NCBI GenBank assembly: GCA_030386875.1
Contig: CM059575.1
Location: forward strand, 42,128,859-42,192,858
Length of the DNA stretch: 64,000 nucleotides
Reading direction: 5' to 3'
From: Morinoia aosen
Lineage: Eukaryota; Arthropoda; Malacostraca; Amphipoda; Talitridae
Shown here: one piece after another, positions 39,966 to 53,240 of the stretch
Layout: every line of letters starts with the position of its first letter
Numbering within the stretch: position 1 is the first letter of the stretch
Position numbers and translations under genes: made by a program
The notes under the pieces: model-generated
Told to the model about the DNA's origin: nothing
Databases searched by the model: none
The model's input: only the letters and a program-made list of their open reading frames with translations

Positions 39966-39969
39966 AATT

Positions 39970-40012
39970 AGACAGTTAAACGACACTTACCTGTAAGTGG
40001 ATGTTTGACTTG
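39970..40012 (+). repeat. 43-bp near-palindromic spacer S, copy 1
   Basis: The centre is CACTTAC-CT-GTAAGTG. Outward, AGTTAAAC on the left mirrors GTTTGACT on the right (AGTCAAAC in reverse complement), so the two arms match at about 14 of 17 positions. AATT flanks both sides. The inverted reading contains CAGGTAAGT, a consensus 5' splice-site string. Function unknown: it could be a recombination site, part of the element, or the original target. Confidence 0.85.
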
Positions 40013-40219
40013 AATTCTTCGGCGCCTTGTCATTGCGTGGCATAAAGTGAGAGACGATCGTCCGGGCACGTGGTTAGCAGTCAGTCTTCAAAGTTAGATG
40101 TCCGGGGCAAATAATAACTCCATTGCGTGGCATAGCAGGGATGGGTGATAATTGATAACTCTCTTAAATTAACATGGGCGGGCACTTTATGCCACGCAAT
40201 GACAAGGCGCCGAAGAATT
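40013..40219 (+). mobile_element. E1: 207-bp non-autonomous DIRS-related unit
   Basis: It has inverted ends of about 38 bp (AATTCTTCGGCGCCTTGTCA on the left and its inverse on the right). Its first ~85 bp share AATTCTTCGG, CCTTGTCAT, TAAAGTGAGAGACGATCGTC and GTGGTTAGCAGTCAGT with the 5' end of the full element E4. Further in it has GGGGCAAATAATAACTC, related to the E4 3' end. Fourteen bases of the terminal repeat (CATTGCGTGGCATA, 40031-40044) recur internally at 40121-40134, like the internal complementary region of DIRS elements. It has no coding capacity and would depend on an autonomous relative. Confidence 0.8.
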
Positions 40220-40262
40220 AGACAGTTAAACGACACTTACCTGTAAGTGGATGTTTGACTTG
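40220..40262 (+). repeat. 43-bp near-palindromic spacer S, copy 2
   Basis: Same sequence and orientation as copy 1, exactly 250 bp downstream, between E1 and E2. Confidence 0.85.
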
Positions 40263-40469
40263 AATTCTTCGGCGCCTTGTCATTGCGTGGCATAAAGTGA
40301 GAGACGATCGTCCGGGCACGTGGTTAGCAGTCAGTCTTCAAAGTTAGATGTCCGGGGCAAATAATAACTCCATTGCGTGGCATAGCAGGGATGGGTGATA
40401 ATTGATAACTCTCTTAAATTAACATGGGCGGGCACTTTATGCCACGCAATGACAAGGCGCCGAAGAATT
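40263..40469 (+). mobile_element. E2: identical second 207-bp unit
   Basis: Base-for-base the same as E1 as far as I can compare, so S+E1 and S+E2 form a perfect 250-bp tandem duplication or the trace of a dimeric insertion. It lies tail to tail with E3 across the inverted S. Confidence 0.85.
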
Positions 40470-40512
40470 CAAGTCAAACATCCACTTACAGGTAAGTGTC
40501 GTTTAACTGTCT
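40470..40512 (-). repeat. 43-bp near-palindromic spacer S, copy 3, inverted
   Basis: Reverse complement of copies 1 and 2. It marks the point where the orientation of the units switches. On + it shows CAGGTAAGT. Confidence 0.85.
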
Positions 40513-40554
40513 AATTCTTCGGGCCTTGTCATAAGCTAGGCCTAAAGTGAGATT

Positions 40555-41664
40555 TTAAAGAGAGTTATATGTTTGCCCCGAGCTTAGAACAATTTCGGCA
40601 AATTCATCGGTCGTGATGGGCTTGTTGTAGAAAGTGGCGAATGTCACACAATTCTTCCATCCTGCAGTTTTGAGTACATTATCCAAGTTCCCAATTTCAT
40701 TATAAACTTTAGAAACAGCGGCAGATCTGGTACTATGTGCTCCATAGAAGTCGACATCCACTCCATTTTCATATAGAACTTTCTTTAGCCACCTACTAAT
40801 GGTGCTTGTACCAATTTTAGCATGAGGAGCTTGATAACTTATTAACATCTGATTTTCTCCCTTACGGAGCTTCTTCGTGCGTTCGAGATATTCTGATAAA
40901 GTTTTATATACACATAATGAAGGTTCATTGTATGATTTAAGAGTTATTATTCTATTTCTATTATTCCGATGAGAGTGATGTTTCAAATGACTTTTGATAA
41001 AAAATGAAATCGAAGAGTCGCCCCGTTTCATATTGTCTATTTTTAACAGAGACAAAGTTTGTACTCTCTGGGCCGTAATGAGAGCCAGCAACATAACAAG
41101 TTTGTGCGTTAGAGTTTTAAGATCAAGCTCCCATAATGGATGTAAGTTTTTTAAATAATTCAGCACAATACTGGCATCCCAAATGACTTCATATTTAGCC
41201 TTCAGTGGAGATTTTTCGAAAATGCCTTTCATAAATCTCGTCACAATTTTGTTCTCTCCGATACTAATGTCGTTTAACGGAAGTATAAAGTTTGATAAGG
41301 CCGACCTCGCAGAGTTGACGGCGCTATAACTTGCATCATCATTGAACAAGTTTTGCAAGAAATTCAGAACAGAATTCAAATTGTATTCAAGGGGATCAAT
41401 TTTCCTTGAAATACAGAAACGTATCCACTTTCCAATATATGTTTTGTACTGCTTATGGGTTGAAGGTCTCCAGGAGCACATGATAGTGTTGGTAACGTCT
41501 TCCGAAAAGCCTCTCTTTTCGCACAATCCCCTGATACGCGACCTCCAATCAGTCTCATCTGGGAATGGAGAGCATGATGATTCTCCGAGAAAGGGAGTTT
41601 CAATACATGTTTGGGGAGAAGAAGTGGAGGCATTACCAATAGGCTCAGGAGTTTCGGGAACCAC
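40555..41664 (-). CDS. Tyrosine recombinase of the deleted copy E3
   Basis: An open frame of 369 codons from a nominal GTG, differing from the E4 enzyme by Asn for Ser near residue 300 and Pro for Ser near residue 35. All signature residues are present: Arg in TAQRVQTL (residue 200), His and Arg in GAHSTR (310, 313), Trp in GWKN (336) and the nucleophile Tyr in TFYNKP (346). There is no ATG at the edge of the frame. In the full element this protein is expected to be made by a frame change, reinitiation or splicing, and E3 may lack what is needed. The stop lies 42 bp from the element end, next to the inverted repeat. Confidence 0.75.
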   Translation of the reverse strand: MVPETPEPIGNASTSSPQTCIETPFLGESSCSPFPDETDWRSRIRGLCEKRGFSEDVTNTIMCSWRPSTHKQYKTYIGKWIRFCISRKIDPLEYNLNSVLNFLQNLFNDDASYSAVNSARSALSNFILPLNDISIGENKIVTRFMKGIFEKSPLKAKYEVIWDASIVLNYLKNLHPLWELDLKTLTHKLVMLLALITAQRVQTLSLLKIDNMKRGDSSISFFIKSHLKHHSHRNNRNRIITLKSYNEPSLCVYKTLSEYLERTKKLRKGENQMLISYQAPHAKIGTSTISRWLKKVLYENGVDVDFYGAHSTRSAAVSKVYNEIGNLDNVLKTAGWKNCVTFATFYNKPITTDEFAEIVLSSGQTYNSL

Positions 41665-42290
41665 GCTTGCGTGTGCCAGAGAGGGACAACTACAATCCCT
41701 TCTGCTTTTTCCTCCACTATCTTCTTCAGAGTTTTCATGATCATGCTGAAAGGAGGAAACGCATAAAAATTTAGTTTACTCCAACTCTCACTAAAGGCAT
41801 TTATGAAGATAGCATTAGGATCCGGTTTCCATGCTACATAACTTTCAAGTTTGAAGTTTAGTTTCGATGCAAAGAGGTCAATATTTGGGACACCTAAATA
41901 ATCCGTAATTTGTTGGAAAACTTCTTGAGAGATACTCCATTCAGTAGCGTGATGAAATACCCTACTAGCTTTATCCGCTAGCACATTTTCCGAGCCTTGA
42001 ATAAATTCTGCCGATATCCAAATATTGCCTCTAATAGCCCAATTCCATATTTCTTTCGAAATCTTGTTGCAAATGAGGGAACTCAAACCTCCCATATGAT
42101 TGATATATTGAATAGCTGTCATGTTATCGCTTTTAATTCGAATATGGCAATTCTTTTCATTTTTACATGAACTATTTAGCCCATTCAAGATTGCTTTCAT
42201 CTCAAGTGCATTGATATGCAGGCAACTATCAATCTCAGACCATGGGCCACCATCGCAATTACCATCTCGGCACCACGTCTCAACGATCAC
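41376..42290 (-). pseudogene. Truncated RNaseH-methyltransferase fragment of E3
   Basis: The frame starts in element leader sequence and runs through the GGCAC junction into the RNase H region at CRDGNCDGG. It has therefore lost the reverse transcriptase and the first RNase H catalytic Asp (the YTDASSSGWG segment of E4). It retains the Glu (NALEMKAIL), Asp (KSDNMTA) and Asp (VLADKAS) residues and the DLFAS/FPPF methyltransferase-like region. No ATG begins it. It overlaps the recombinase frame by 289 nt, as in E4. Confidence 0.8.
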
Positions 42291-42361
42291 TGACTGCTAA
42301 CCACGTGCCCGGACGATCGTCTCTCACTTTAGGCCTAGCTTATGACAAGGCCCGAAGAATT

Positions 42362-42404
42362 CAAGTCAAACATCCACTTACAGGTAAGTGTCGTTTAACT
42401 GTCT
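42362..42404 (-). repeat. 43-bp near-palindromic spacer S, copy 4, inverted
   Basis: Between E3 and E4, same orientation as copy 3, again bounded by AATT on both sides. Confidence 0.85.
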
Positions 42405-42446
42405 AATTCTTCGGGCCTTGTCATAAGCTAGGCCTAAAGTGAGATT

Positions 42447-43556
42447 TTAAAGAGAGTTATATGTTTGCCCCGAGCTTAGAACAATTTCGGCAAATTCATC
42501 GGTCGTGATGGGCTTGTTGTAGAAAGTGGCGAATGTCACACAATTCTTCCATCCTGCAGTTTTGAGTACATTATCCAAGTTCCCAATTTCATTATAAACT
42601 TTAGAAACAGCGGCAGATCTGGTACTATGTGCTCCATAGAAGTCGACATCCACTCCACTTTCATATAGAACTTTCTTTAGCCACCTACTAATGGTGCTTG
42701 TACCAATTTTAGCATGAGGAGCTTGATAACTTATTAACATCTGATTTTCTCCCTTACGGAGCTTCTTCGTGCGTTCGAGATATTCTGATAAAGTTTTATA
42801 TACACATAATGAAGGTTCATTGTATGATTTAAGAGTTATTATTCTATTTCTATTATTCCGATGAGAGTGATGTTTCAAATGACTTTTGATAAAAAATGAA
42901 ATCGAAGAGTCGCCCCGTTTCATATTGTCTATTTTTAACAGAGACAAAGTTTGTACTCTCTGGGCCGTAATGAGAGCCAGCAACATAACAAGTTTGTGCG
43001 TTAGAGTTTTAAGATCAAGCTCCCATAATGGATGTAAGTTTTTTAAATAATTCAGCACAATACTGGCATCCCAAATGACTTCATATTTAGCCTTCAGTGG
43101 AGATTTTTCGAAAATGCCTTTCATAAATCTCGTCACAATTTTGTTCTCTCCGATACTAATGTCGTTTAACGGAAGTATAAAGTTTGATAAGGCCGACCTC
43201 GCAGAGTTGACGGCGCTATAACTTGCATCATCATTGAACAAGTTTTGCAAGAAATTCAGAACAGAATTCAAATTGTATTCAAGGGGATCAATTTTCCTTG
43301 AAATACAGAAACGTATCCACTTTCCAATATATGTTTTGTACTGCTTATGGGTTGAAGGTCTCCAGGAGCACATGATAGTGTTGGTAACGTCTTCCGAAAA
43401 GCCTCTCTTTTCGCACAATCCCCTGATACGCGACCTCCAATCAGTCTCATCTGAGAATGGAGAGCATGATGATTCTCCGAGAAAGGGAGTTTCAATACAT
43501 GTTTGGGGAGAAGAAGTGGAGGCATTACCAATAGGCTCAGGAGTTTCGGGAACCAC
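42447..43556 (-). CDS. DIRS tyrosine recombinase (E4)
   Basis: 369 codons from a nominal GTG. A basic N-terminal SAM-like core-binding region (residues about 45-150) is followed by the catalytic domain. Catalytic set: Arg200 in TAQRVQTL, His310 and Arg313 in GAHSTRS, Trp336 in GWKN and Tyr346 in TFYNKP. It joins circular cDNA to chromosomal DNA, replacing an integrase. The frame stays open upstream of the GTG (reading SLAHASVVPET) and has no nearby ATG. It overlaps the end of the RT polyprotein by 289 nt in another frame. On the minus strand a pyrimidine-rich run ends in CAG at 43638, just upstream, a candidate splice acceptor. Confidence 0.85.
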   Translation of the reverse strand: MVPETPEPIGNASTSSPQTCIETPFLGESSCSPFSDETDWRSRIRGLCEKRGFSEDVTNTIMCSWRPSTHKQYKTYIGKWIRFCISRKIDPLEYNLNSVLNFLQNLFNDDASYSAVNSARSALSNFILPLNDISIGENKIVTRFMKGIFEKSPLKAKYEVIWDASIVLNYLKNLHPLWELDLKTLTHKLVMLLALITAQRVQTLSLLKIDNMKRGDSSISFFIKSHLKHHSHRNNRNRIITLKSYNEPSLCVYKTLSEYLERTKKLRKGENQMLISYQAPHAKIGTSTISRWLKKVLYESGVDVDFYGAHSTRSAAVSKVYNEIGNLDNVLKTAGWKNCVTFATFYNKPITTDEFAEIVLSSGQTYNSL

Positions 43557-45391
43557 GCTTGCGTGTGCCAGAGAGGGACAACTACAATCCCTTCTGCTTT
43601 TTCCTCCACTATCTTCTTCAGAGTTTTCATGATCATGCTGAAAGGAGGAAACGCATAAAAATTTAGTTTACTCCAACTCTCACTAAAGGCATTTATGAAG
43701 ATAGCATTAGGATCCGGTTTCCATGCTACATAACTTTCAAGTTTGAAGTTTAGTTTCGATGCAAAGAGGTCAATATTTGGGACACCTAAATAATCCGTAA
43801 TTTGTTGGAAAACTTCTTGAGGGATACTCCATTCAGTAGCGTGATGAAATACCCTACTAGCTTTATCCGCTAGCACATTTTCCGAGCCTTGAATAAATTC
43901 TGCCGATATCCAAATATTGCCTCTAATAGCCCAATTCCATATTTCTTTCGAAATCTTGTTGCAAATGAGGGAACTCAAACCTCCCATATGATTGATATAT
44001 TGAATAGCTGTCATGTTATCGCTTTTAATTCGAATATGGCAATTCTTTTCATTTTTACATGAACTATTTAGCCCATTCAAGATTGCTTTCATCTCAAGTG
44101 CATTGATATGCAGGCAACTATCAATCTCAGACCATGGGCCACCATCGCAATTACCATCTCGGCACACCCCCCATCCGCTTGAACTCGCGTCAGTGTATAT
44201 CACTACTTTAAACTCTTCATGCTTGATAGGACAAAAAGATTTAAACACATTCTCAATCCACCATCTTATATCAATTTTTGAGTCTTCTGATAGTTCAACA
44301 GAAGCATCAAATTCACCTCGACTTAGTTTTAGCCCAAAGTTTTTGTTCTGCTCAAGAGACCTATAGTTGAGAGCTCCAAACTGCACTCCAGGAAAGCAAG
44401 ATACCAAGCATCCAATATACATTGCCAAGTCTCTAATGCTAATTCTAGACTTAGTCTGAAGCTCGAGTGACTGATTATAAATCTTCACTTTTTTCTCGTC
44501 CGTCAAATAAACTTTCATGTTGACTGTATCGATACGAAACCCCAAGAATTGAATATTTCGAGAAGGGATTAAATTTGACTTATCATGATTGATCACAAAC
44601 CCAAGACTCTCAAAAAGTTCAATGGTCGATGCGACATTAGTCAAACACTCCTGATAAGAAGTACCAATCAACAGTGAATCATCCAGGTAATACGTTGACA
44701 GAAACCCTCGAGACCGTAATGAAGCAAAAACCGGCTTCAACAATTTCGTGAAGAGTCTGGGCGCACAAGAGAGCCCATTCGGTAAGCACGCGAACTGATA
44801 CAGCTGATTCATCCAGGTGAAACGTAAAAAACACCTGAATCTATTAGCAACAGGGACAGTAAAATATGCATTTTTCAAGTCCACCGACGCCAGAAAATTT
44901 CCTTGCTCAATTAAACCAAGAGTGGTTTGCAAAGTTTCCATTTTAAATTTCTTGTAAGTTACATACTTATTTAATTCTGCAAGGTCTAAAATTATTCTGA
45001 TCCCACCATCGCGTTTCGGACGCGTAAATATTTTGGACACAAACTGAAAAGCAGAATGAACAGCAGGTTCAATTACCCCCGTTTTAAGGAATTCTTTAAT
45101 TTTTTCGTCAACAAGCTTGGACTCTTTCATAGAAAATTCTATTTCTTTAGGAGGGATTACACGCAAGGGCACTTTATCAGAAAATTCAATTTCACAACCA
45201 GATACAAGATCTATAATGAATTTATCTGTCGTTAAGGTACTCCACACCTTTGAAAAATTTTTAATATTGCCAGCATTGAAACCACAAGTCTTTACAGGAG
45301 AACTAACCTGTTCTAATAATTTCTGCCCCTTTGCTTCCGAGCATGTCCGGAGGGGCGCCGACCGTTTCCCGAGCGTTGTACTTGGTAAGGA
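43268..45391 (-). CDS. RT-RNaseH-methyltransferase-like polyprotein (E4)
   Basis: The frame is open from just after a TAG at 45392-45394 to its stop at 43268, about 707 codons. It overlaps the end of gag by 79 nt in the -1 frame and has no early ATG, so a -1 frameshift or similar is expected. Counting from Trp at about 45244: RT motif SVDLKNAYF (Asp ~123), YYLDD (~186-190), then RNase H residues Asp353 (YTDASS), Glu385 (NALEMK), Asp410 (KSDNM) and Asp461 (VLADKAS). A region with DLFAS (~493) and AFPPF (~532-536) follows, resembling the Dam-like adenine methyltransferase domain of DIRS elements with FPPF in place of the usual NPPY-type motif. It copies element RNA into DNA. Confidence 0.85.
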   Translation of the reverse strand, partial: SLPSTTLGKRSAPLRTCSEAKGQKLLEQVSSPVKTCGFNAGNIKNFSKVWSTLTTDKFIIDLVSGCEIEFSDKVPLRVIPPKEIEFSMKESKLVDEKIKEFLKTGVIEPAVHSAFQFVSKIFTRPKRDGGIRIILDLAELNKYVTYKKFKMETLQTTLGLIEQGNFLASVDLKNAYFTVPVANRFRCFLRFTWMNQLYQFACLPNGLSCAPRLFTKLLKPVFASLRSRGFLSTYYLDDSLLIGTSYQECLTNVASTIELFESLGFVINHDKSNLIPSRNIQFLGFRIDTVNMKVYLTDEKKVKIYNQSLELQTKSRISIRDLAMYIGCLVSCFPGVQFGALNYRSLEQNKNFGLKLSRGEFDASVELSEDSKIDIRWWIENVFKSFCPIKHEEFKVVIYTDASSSGWGVCRDGNCDGGPWSEIDSCLHINALEMKAILNGLNSSCKNEKNCHIRIKSDNMTAIQYINHMGGLSSLICNKISKEIWNWAIRGNIWISAEFIQGSENVLADKASRVFHHATEWSIPQEVFQQITDYLGVPNIDLFASKLNFKLESYVAWKPDPNAIFINAFSESWSKLNFYAFPPFSMIMKTLKKIVEEKAEGIVVVPLWHTQAWFPKLLSLLVMPPLLLPKHVLKLPFSENHHALHSQMRLIGGRVSGDCAKREAFRKTLPTLSCAPGDLQPISSTKHILESGYVSVFQGKLIPLNTI

Positions 45392-46500
45392 CTAAATCTA
45401 CCCGTTCTTCTTCCAGTGGAGCTACACCTTGCTCTTAAACTGGGAAATCTAGAACTTGCTCCTCTGCTTCTGCTTTGAAAATTACCTCTATAAAACTTAT
45501 CTTGCCCAATGTGAGCAGAAATTTTATTCAACTCCGTAATTTCCTTCACTTTCTGACTGAAATTTTCTCCTAGTAACCAAAGGCCAGAAAAATTTTCTTC
45601 CCTTTTACAGAGCTTTGCCCAATTGGAAGGCAAATCAGGCTTCATAGCCTCCTTCCTGCAGTTGACCAGGTCCAAGTTAGCAGTTCCAATAAAAGCAACT
45701 GAATCTGAAAGGTCTTTAATAATCTGAGTTAAATCAAGATTATCCTGAGAATCTTCTTTAATGGCTCCAAAGATTTTTTCCATGCATTTGCCAATTGGGG
45801 TCAAACTCGTTAGGATGCTCTTTTGAATTTTCTGCAACTCGCATTCACGTTGCTTAGTTTTTGCGGGTAAATAGTTAAAAACTTCCGGATTCAGTTTAGG
45901 AACTTCTAAGAAGGAACAATTTTCCGGTCTCACATGAGTTTCTTCTCTTCGTTTTTTAGAATTTTCAGAGCTAGATTTGGAAATCATCGACGCGATCAAT
46001 GAAGAAACTTCATCATTAATATTGGGACCAGTTAATTCTGCGTTCTCAAATTCTCTTTCAATCTTGCTCAAAAGAGATTCCTCAACACTCTCTTGTTCAA
46101 TTTCCAGAGAATCCTCTTCAAAACATTGCTCTTCATTAGACAATTCGAACATAGGCATAATTTCGGCAGTTATATTCTGAGCTATAGAATTCCCTAATTT
46201 AGAAATATTTTCATTCATTTTGGCAAACCCATCCATCATAACTTCGCAGATCTTGTCCAAATCACCATTCCCCTCCAAATTCTTCCTTTTCCCCGCAGCA
46301 CTCTTTACATGACTGGGACCCGCGGAAGAGCCAGCTTTGTCACTTTTAGAAATTTCAGCATCTTTTTTCCTCTCTTGGGACACAGAATTATCTTTATTCT
46401 TCTCACTTCGTTTACTAATTTTTACTTTTTCCGCCACACTCAAATTTGTTTCACTTTCTGCAGGTGGGTCAACTCCCACCAGGTCCGCAAGAGAAGCCAT
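45313..46500 (-). CDS. Gag-like protein of E4
   Basis: 395 codons from ATG at 46500 (reads MASLADLVG). The ATG has A at -3 and G at +4, a good eukaryotic initiation context, and the frame has no earlier ATG. The N-terminal third is charged with Lys/Glu/Ser. The middle carries acidic segments and a helical region near ELQKIQKSILTSLTPIGK. The last ~55 residues are very Arg/Gly/Ser-rich (RGNFQSRSRGASSR and onward), suitable for nucleic-acid binding. No CCHC zinc knuckle is present. Position (first frame after the leader) supports the Gag call more than sequence does. Confidence 0.7.
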   Translation of the reverse strand: MASLADLVGVDPPAESETNLSVAEKVKISKRSEKNKDNSVSQERKKDAEISKSDKAGSSAGPSHVKSAAGKRKNLEGNGDLDKICEVMMDGFAKMNENISKLGNSIAQNITAEIMPMFELSNEEQCFEEDSLEIEQESVEESLLSKIEREFENAELTGPNINDEVSSLIASMISKSSSENSKKRREETHVRPENCSFLEVPKLNPEVFNYLPAKTKQRECELQKIQKSILTSLTPIGKCMEKIFGAIKEDSQDNLDLTQIIKDLSDSVAFIGTANLDLVNCRKEAMKPDLPSNWAKLCKREENFSGLWLLGENFSQKVKEITELNKISAHIGQDKFYRGNFQSRSRGASSRFPSLRARCSSTGRRTGRFSPYQVQRSGNGRRPSGHARKQRGRNY

Positions 46501-46671
46501 TTCAGTAAATTTTTTAATTATGATTATTTTCAATCACTGAAACACACAATATAATTTTTTAATCGAAATTTTATTATCTTAAGATATTAGATCTACAATT
46601 TAGCTTGATCAAACCTAAATTCATTTCTATTCATCTAATGATTGGTCGGTCGATTTAAAAGTTTCAATGCG

Positions 46672-47176
46672 GTTACCCAGCTTATTTTCAAAAATAACTA
46701 GAGCAGCAGAAGAGCATAAAACTTCCATTACAAAGGTTTTACCAGGTTAAATTAAAGCTGTAATCACGCCTAAGGGAGATTACCCAGGTAAGCAATAATT
46801 GTCACGCCTAAGGGAGACAAACCTGGTGCTTTAATATTACAATTTTAGTCACACCTGAGGATGACTAGCCCGGTCAATAGGTATAGAAGCTTGTAATCAC
46901 GCCCAAGGGAGATTACCCAGGTAATTAGTAATTGTCACGCCTGAGGGAGACAAACCTGGTGCTTATCAATACAAATTTAGTCACACCTGAGGATGACTAG
47001 CCCGGTTATTAGTCATAAAAGCTTGTAATCACGCCTAAGGGAGATTACCCAGGTAGTTAGTATTGTCACGCCCAAGGGAGACAAACCTGGTGCTTAGTTT
47101 ATTTAATCAGGCACAAGGCTGATTTTCCAGGCAAAATTCTATTGTTTGCATAGAATTGAATGAAAAGCTGGGTAAC
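46672..47176 (-). promoter_or_regulatory. Leader array of ten stem-loops enclosed by a long-range stem
   Basis: Between the 5' inverted repeat and gag. On + coordinates the stems are AAAAC/GTTTT (46721-46740), GTAATC/GATTAC (46760-46783, 46893-46916, 47025-47048), TTGTC/GACAA (46799-46820, 46932-46953, 47063-47084), TAGTCA/TGACTA (46846-46867, 46978-46999) and AATCAG/CTGATT (47105-47124). Three modules form a ~133-bp higher-order unit repeated 2.7 times. Stem sequences differ between modules, while loops of most look like CACGCCTAAGGGAG. Most hairpins are followed by a CCAGGT, CCTGGT or CCCGGT box. GTTACCCAGC (46672-46681) can pair with GCTGGGTAAC (47167-47176), extended by TTTTC/GAAAA. A packaging, translation or reverse-transcription signal is inferred. 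Confidence 0.7.
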
Positions 47177-47397
47177 AAGCATCTATGCCCCGCAGTTAAC
47201 TTTTAAATTCACCGCGACAACTTTAAATCTGATATTAATCTAGTTAAATAATAGAAGTTCACCGACTAGTTAATCTTCACTGCGAACGCACACAAGGACC
47301 GACTGGCACCACGTCTCAACGATCACTGACTGCTAACCACGTGCCCGGACGATCGTCTCTCACTTTAGGCCTAGCTTATGACAAGGCCCGAAGAATT

Positions 47398-50870: not shown

Positions 50871-51266
50871 GCTCGTGCTGCATGTTGCACCAACGCAACA
50901 GTCAGCTGCTCGTGCTGCATGTTGCACTAACGAAACAGCTGCTCGTGCTGCATGTTGCACTAACGAAACAGCTGCTCGTGCTGCATGTTGCACCAACGAA
51001 AGTCAGCTGCTCGTGCTGCATGTTGCACCAACGAAAGTCAGCTGCTCGTGCTGCATATTGCACCAACGAAACAGTCAGCTGCTCGTGCTGCATATTGCAC
51101 CAACGAAACAGTCAGCTGCTCGTGCTGCATGTTGCACCAACGCAACAGTCAGCTGCTCGTGCTGCATGTTGCACTAACGAAACAGTCAGCTGCTCGTGCT
51201 GCATATTGCACCAACGAAACAGTCAGCTGCTCGTGCTGCATGTTGCACAACGAAACAGTCAGCTGC
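50871..51266. repeat. 37-bp minisatellite, 11 copies, in three length classes
   Basis: The core CTCGTGCTGCATGTTGCAC recurs with CAT at 50881, 50918, 50951, 50984, 51019, 51054, 51091, 51128, 51165, 51202 and 51239. Spacings are 37, 33, 33, 35, 35, 37, 37, 37, 37, 37. The three lengths come from small deletions at one place, between AACGAAA and CAGCTG. The overlapping long frames on both strands (up to 162 codons) exist because the unit contains no stop in several frames. They change frame through the array and are not called as genes. Confidence 0.92.
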
Positions 51267-52620: not shown

Positions 52621-52958
52621 GTGAAATACTCTTAATAACACAAACACATAGCTCAGATCTGCAACAAAGCTCAACACTTTTTTTATAGAATAGTGAGCTT
52701 TGTAGTAAGTTAAGGCGTGAGACATGAGTAAAATAACAGCGCCGAAGGCTTTTGGTCAGGGCAGCAGCTACGCCAACACAATCAACATTAAAAAAAAACA
52801 TCTTCGTGAACCGCAAGTAAATATAGTTAAAGTAAAAAAAATACGACATCTAGGGTACGTGAATTTGATCGGCTAAGCAAAATGAACTATTTCAACAGTG
52901 AAGTGAGTTCGTGCATCACGTGAGGCCTCACTGCAACTGTGTGCACTGTACTCCAATA
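52621..52958. other. Unassigned sequence
   Basis: Nothing recognised between R350 copy 14 and the 14-bp minisatellite. Confidence 0.5.
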
Positions 52959-53240
52959 CCTGCACTCCCTCACCTGCACTTCCTCACCTGCACTCCCACA
53001 CCTGCACTCCCACACCTGCACTCCCACACCTGCACTCCCACACCTGCACTCCCACACCTGCACTCCCACACCTGCACTCCCACACCTGCACTCCCACACC
53101 TGCACTCCCACACCTGCACTCCCACACCTGCACTCCCACACCTGCACTCCCTCACCTGCACTCCCACACCTGCACTCCCACACCTGCACTCCCACACCTG
53201 CACTCCCACACCTGCACTCCCTCACCTGCACTCCCTCACC
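52959..53240. repeat. 14-bp minisatellite (about 20 copies)
   Basis: Unit CACCTGCACTCCCA, with CTCA instead of CACA junctions at both edges and once near 53150. Because 14 is not a multiple of 3, all frames cycle through the same peptide every 42 bp. This explains the His/Thr/Pro-rich and Val/Gly/Cys-rich long open frames on the two strands. Confidence 0.95.

Follow-up and report, generated by a model that had tools for sequence, protein, structure and literature searches.

A DIRS1-like retrotransposon of Morinoia aosen carrying a nested, internally deleted family member

Coding content and parts of the locus

The window, by which the whole analysed stretch of 64,000 nucleotides is meant, carries the genes of a DIRS1-like retrotransposon on the minus strand, to which the parts of the elements described below also belong. 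A gag-like reading frame of 406 amino acids (45313..46533) was without a Pfam match and was named gag from its position. A pol frame (43268..45391, stop to stop) showed an RT match above the curated cut-off and methyltransferase-type matches (Dam and PCIF1_WW) below it. The tyrosine recombinase frame (42447..43667, stop to stop) belongs to the phage integrase family and contains the HSTR motif, and a second tyrosine recombinase frame is located at 40555..41664 in a shorter, inner copy. Both the RVT_1 and the Phage_integrase matches exceeded the curated cut-offs; an RNase H-like match below the cut-off was reported only for the frame of the inner copy. The YLDD motif was present as well as HSTR. 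RT, MT and YR domains were found together in one element, as is typical of DIRS1-like elements, the MT domain being represented by the matches below the cut-off.

Four identical copies of a 43-bp sequence, S, were located at 39970-40012 (+), 40220-40262 (+), 40470-40512 (-) and 42362-42404 (-). They lie beside two units of 207 bp that are identical to each other (40013-40219 and 40263-40469), a unit of 1849 bp (40513-42361) and a unit of 4993 bp (42405-47397), and AATT was found at every unit boundary of the locus. An earlier sequence-only reading had given four copies of S, unit lengths of 207, 207, 1849 and 4993 bp and AATT boundaries, and all of these were exact on recheck. The locus contains inverted repeats that are perfect over 84 and 90 nt, and the 1849-bp and 4993-bp units have 1761 bp in common at 99.83% identity; these repeats and this identity are far beyond chance. 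Because of the 1761 bp common to both, the 1849-bp unit was taken as an internal deletion of the 4993-bp type.

Read along the minus strand, the order is body, S, deleted body, S, reversed 207-bp piece, inverted S, reversed 207-bp piece, inverted S and flank. The stretch from the deleted body to the first inverted S (40220..42361) is a complete element of 2142 bp, in which gag, RT and part of pol are missing, whereas the two termini, the two internal complementary regions (ICRs) and an open frame for the YR are kept. The sequence outside it is ordered like a plain copy and extends from 47397 to 39970, with a total of 5286 bp without the nested copy. Its 5' part (42362..47397) contains the left terminus, leader, gag, pol, YR, the left ICR and, of the right ICR, the half formed by S. 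The nested copy separates this from the 3' part (39970..40219), which contains the remaining right ICR, the right inverted terminal repeat (ITR) and the right extension.

The left ITR of the outer element (47325..47397) consists of a divergent portion of about 37 bp, followed by a portion identical to the right ITR. Alignment of the left terminus with the reversed right terminus gave 91.9% over 74 columns, the outer part being divergent and the inner part, about 43 bp, identical. The outermost 47 bp (AATT plus S) had no match in the left terminus and form a right extension, the inverted S of which is located at 39970..40012 in the outer and at 40220..40262 in the inner element. The left ICR is the left terminus in reverse, directly after the recombinase gene, and is complementary to it in 40 of 40 bp (outer element, 42405..42444; the inner left ICR lies at 40513..40552). 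The right ICR starts at the AATT past the left ICR, and all of its 84 bp are complementary to the right end, the edge AATT counted. In the inner element it is arranged as AATT-S-AATT-X1 (40433..40516) and is the perfect complement of both 40216-40299 and 39966-40049. S is thus the right extension, and the reversed S that adjoins the left ICR makes up the outer portion of the right ICR.

Inverted terminal repeats, which membership of the DIRS1-like group requires, were present, as were ICRs complementary to both termini and meeting at the circular junction. A target-site duplication was absent: the two flanks of the window, where alone both flanks were compared, share AATT only (39966..39969 between the flank and the outer right end). 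Together with the RT and YR domains, this layout of ICRs and ITRs bears out the earlier assignment of the locus to the DIRS type.

The score of one arm of S against the other was reached by 17 of 5000 shuffles of the letters of S. A fold as stable as that of the sense strand was found in none of 200 shuffles; for the other strand the result was less clear (12 of 200). The folding had suggested S as a 3' hairpin, which was rejected, as the true right end of the element does not need one. The window had no match in Rfam and tRNA scans.

Related copies in the genome

The right ends of the inner and the outer copy are identical over 250 bp, and their assignment to one copy or the other therefore depends on the relatives. 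The source genome of the window (1.99 Gb in 29 contigs) was searched with an 84-nt probe consisting of AATT-S-AATT and the start of the 207-bp unit. This gave 105 candidates, of which 40 were scored, all with 100% identity. By count the scored matches represent 24 loci, all on contigs C1-C9, and 10 kb were taken at each. Every one of these 24 loci showed a body of the 4993-bp type, whole or broken, followed by S, the reversed 207-bp piece and an inverted S. Since the probe already contained S and the first part of the 207-bp piece, what counts as independent is the presence of the body on one side and of the second, inverted S.

The fixed order in 24 of 24 relatives identifies the 207-bp piece together with S as the right end of one element; in the window, the 3' part of the outer element is the piece that follows S in all of them. 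The sequence-only reading had grouped the locus into units and a spacer, a division that dissolves here into parts of an element. The same order overturned a second arrangement that had been considered, in which body plus S would be the unit and the 207-bp piece a separate mini-element integrated via its ICR.

S itself was found at 103 places in the genome with at most 2 mismatches, and a backward control pattern at none; the repeat counts may be lower bounds. The 100 listed copies correspond to 49 loci, one of them the window. Of the 48 others, 24 are the fetched loci and the remaining 24 were placed by match positions, one of them also by 1.2 kb of sequence. An inverted pair of S about 250 bp apart was present at 45 of the 49 loci. 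The other four are the window itself (+,+,-,-), locus L014 with a pair 595 bp apart and an insertion within the reversed 207-bp piece, locus L017 (+,+,-), and one locus with a single S, alongside which a more diverged partner is visible.

The junction of left ICR and S was searched with at most 3 mismatches and was found at 52 places, 50 in register with a listed S and two not. It was in register at all 49 loci with a listed S, twice in the window. No S apart from the left ICR of a DIRS element was found among the 100 listed copies of the 103. The search for S without a DIRS unit, proposed along with the earlier reading, thus found none among these 100. A plain single-copy host sequence, which that reading had named as its own possible refutation, is excluded as well. 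S was also considered as a host target or a long target duplication; this was rejected, as S is missing to the right of the locus and the listed copies are all joined to the left ICR. In integron-like cassette arrays, site and cassettes are separable and occur apart from each other; such separability was not seen here, S being tied to the left ICR at each of the 49 loci.

The nested anatomy of the locus is regarded as highly probable when taken without any route of insertion. Many copies hardly differ from the outer element, and the family is apparently a young one of the DIRS1-like type. No relatives were found in viral contigs or in contigs of prokaryote genomes.

Several relatives deviate from the plain form. 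At L017 (G000:C6 near 92021555-92022115) the right end is present twice in tandem, 250 bp each, with several base differences and no inner body. Either the loss of the inner body from an older nesting or a duplicated right end could explain this locus. L019 (3302-5164) is another short, internally deleted copy; since it and the inner copy of the window have different deletions, deleted forms arise separately. L028 and L029 (G000:C3 near 41.60 and 41.62 Mb) are about 14.8 kb apart and have their right flank in common, so that a segmental duplication within this region is likely. On C24, two pairs of S (13.29 and 13.31 Mb) are separated by about 14.4 kb.

Nesting junctions, landing site and proposed route of insertion

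The inner element is joined to the outer one at two AATTs. At the left nesting junction (42358..42361; Y'/X), S is followed directly by the body-type left terminus of the inner element; an exact search matched this junction once in the genome, in the window. At the right nesting junction (40216..40219; Y/X1), the inverted S of the inner right extension meets X1 of the outer right ICR; with up to 2 mismatches allowed, two matches were found, both exact, one in the window and one at L017. The insertion of the inner copy is located at S|X1.

The AATTs of the outer element were scored against the circle junction, composed of the inverted-S end, AATT and the left terminus. Among these 82 sites the ICR scored perfectly (40), the two ends, S|X1 and its mirror scored 20, and the rest did not exceed 8.5. 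The best score among 550 other AATTs of the window was likewise 8.5, against 20 at the landing AATT. Junction-like sites make up 3 of the 80 internal AATTs, S|X1 being one of them, and an insertion into a random AATT would strike one about 4% of the time. As only one event was seen, this chance makes the likeness weak evidence for guidance.

Right flanks were compared in 24 distinct cases, i.e. 23 fetched loci and the window; L029 was dropped, its flank being the same as that of L028. The core was exactly AATT in 21 of the 24, with weak preferences beyond it. Gapped, anchored scoring showed no significant likeness of the window's host target to the circle junction (363 of 550 background sites were at least as good); without gaps the likeness was weak (31 of 550).

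We infer the following route. The RNA of the element would be copied into DNA according to the published DIRS1 model, and the ICR would join both element ends, yielding a circle with AATT as its junction. The tyrosine recombinase would then link this junction (Y arm, AATT, X arm) with a target AATT, and the target would not be duplicated. In the window, the target would have been the AATT in the right ICR of a resident copy (Y' arm, AATT, X1 arm), a site that would itself reproduce the circle junction imperfectly. The crossover core is very likely AATT, and S contains one arm of the circle junction as reconstructed here. The idea of S as a recombination site by which units stack as cassettes is thus retained in part: a junction arm lies in S next to the probable core, and a cassette array is not supported. 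Including this route, the locus is read, with a probability of about 0.8, as a DIRS1-like retrotransposon of 5286 bp that has taken up an internally deleted, 2142-bp member of its own family.

Homologous recombination between two copies, at S or at their terminal repeats, could also have produced the same nested anatomy. Such an exchange could act on S and on the right end of 250 bp, both of which are present as identical repeats, and the doubled right end at L017 without an inner body could have formed in this manner. We consider this improbable, because both new junctions are placed exactly at AATT and connect S ends to types of left terminus that are not their neighbours in plain copies, and a crossover within S is not expected to turn S|X1 into S|X. 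A misjoin of two separate copies during assembly is less probable still: the many near-identical copies of the outer element favour such errors, but a misjoin need not coincide with AATT, the assembly comprises 29 contigs, and spacing was plain at 45 of the 49 loci with a listed S. Independent units stacking via S, the cassette-like array of DIRS units proposed in the sequence-only reading, would fit the position of S before the first unit and between each pair and the exact AATT boundaries, but can practically be dismissed, as the same pieces make up one element in all 24 fetched relatives, the left ICR is in register at all 49 loci with a listed S, and the junction of S and left terminus that stacking needs was matched once in the genome by the exact search.

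The position of the inner copy, as one clear event, suggests that the right ICR of the resident copy was used by the recombinase as its attachment site. More generally, right ICRs may serve the recombinase as attachment sites, the near-palindromic S and the alike divergent ITRs giving every copy junction-like AATTs in its interior and making it a landing pad for its relatives; this extension is put forward tentatively, as a possibility that we ourselves rate as somewhat doubtful. If true, it would account for the self-nesting of DIRS elements.

Described elements and further features of the window

In layout the element resembles AcaDIRS1 and LgDIRS1 (PMC3266345), which likewise have a right extension only and ATT at both ends. 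AcaDIRS1 is listed in Table 3 of that paper with a divergent ITR of 36, a conserved ITR of 32, a right extension of 48, ICRs of 45-88 and ends ATT; the corresponding values for LgDIRS1 are a left ICR of 39, a right ICR of 86, a right extension of 48, a divergent ITR of 35 and a conserved ITR of 31. The ICRs found here (40 and 84) are close to these (45 and 88; 39 and 86), as are the right extension (47 versus 48 in both) and the divergent ITR (about 37 versus 36 and 35). In contrast, the identical inner ITR is longer (about 43 bp versus 32 and 31), and the core was taken as the 4-bp AATT instead of the 3-bp AAT. The YLDD and HSTR motifs, which PMC3266345 follows through 28 elements, occur here as well.

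Insertion of DIRS-1 into DIRS-1 was described for Dictyostelium (Cappello 1984, as cited in PMC5633606), and nested elements are mentioned in PMC3266345. The present element, like that of Dictyostelium, inserts into its own copies; the landing site here is the AATT in the right ICR. For insertion at the ICR itself, no description was found in the literature accessible to the search. A preference for the ICR as landing site, if real, would give the insertion of DIRS-1 into its own copies a simple, testable cause.

The TATE tandem clusters of Leishmania braziliensis are similar in that YR retrotransposons are grouped at one site, and differ (PMC6681497) in having split direct repeats and a telomeric repeat as target instead of inverted repeats and nesting. 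Split direct repeats of the order A1-B1-A2-B2 are likewise given for PAT, Ngaro and VIPER; they were not found here, the terminal and internal repeats being inverted. The two copies are an ordinary nested pair in a DIRS1-like family, DIRS insertion into DIRS being already known. The new cassette system that had been claimed gives way to a well-understood DIRS layout, and the locus offers a clean DIRS1-like family with an exact nesting site.

Two further kinds of repeats were observed in the window. The 5' leader of the outer element contains eight tandem hairpins with a near-constant loop at 46754-47096 (-). Their stems are of three self-complementary kinds, TTGTC/GACAA (three times), GTAATC/GATTAC (three times) and TAGTC/GACTA (twice), and each hairpin is preceded by CCWGG or CCGGG. 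Among the 24 fetched loci, the loop motif occurred 7-9 times in 15, was absent from 8 and was found 5 times in L017; the hairpins are perhaps a packaging or translation signal. Minisatellites are located at 50871-51266 (37 bp, 11 times) and at 52946-53240 (14 bp, 21 times).
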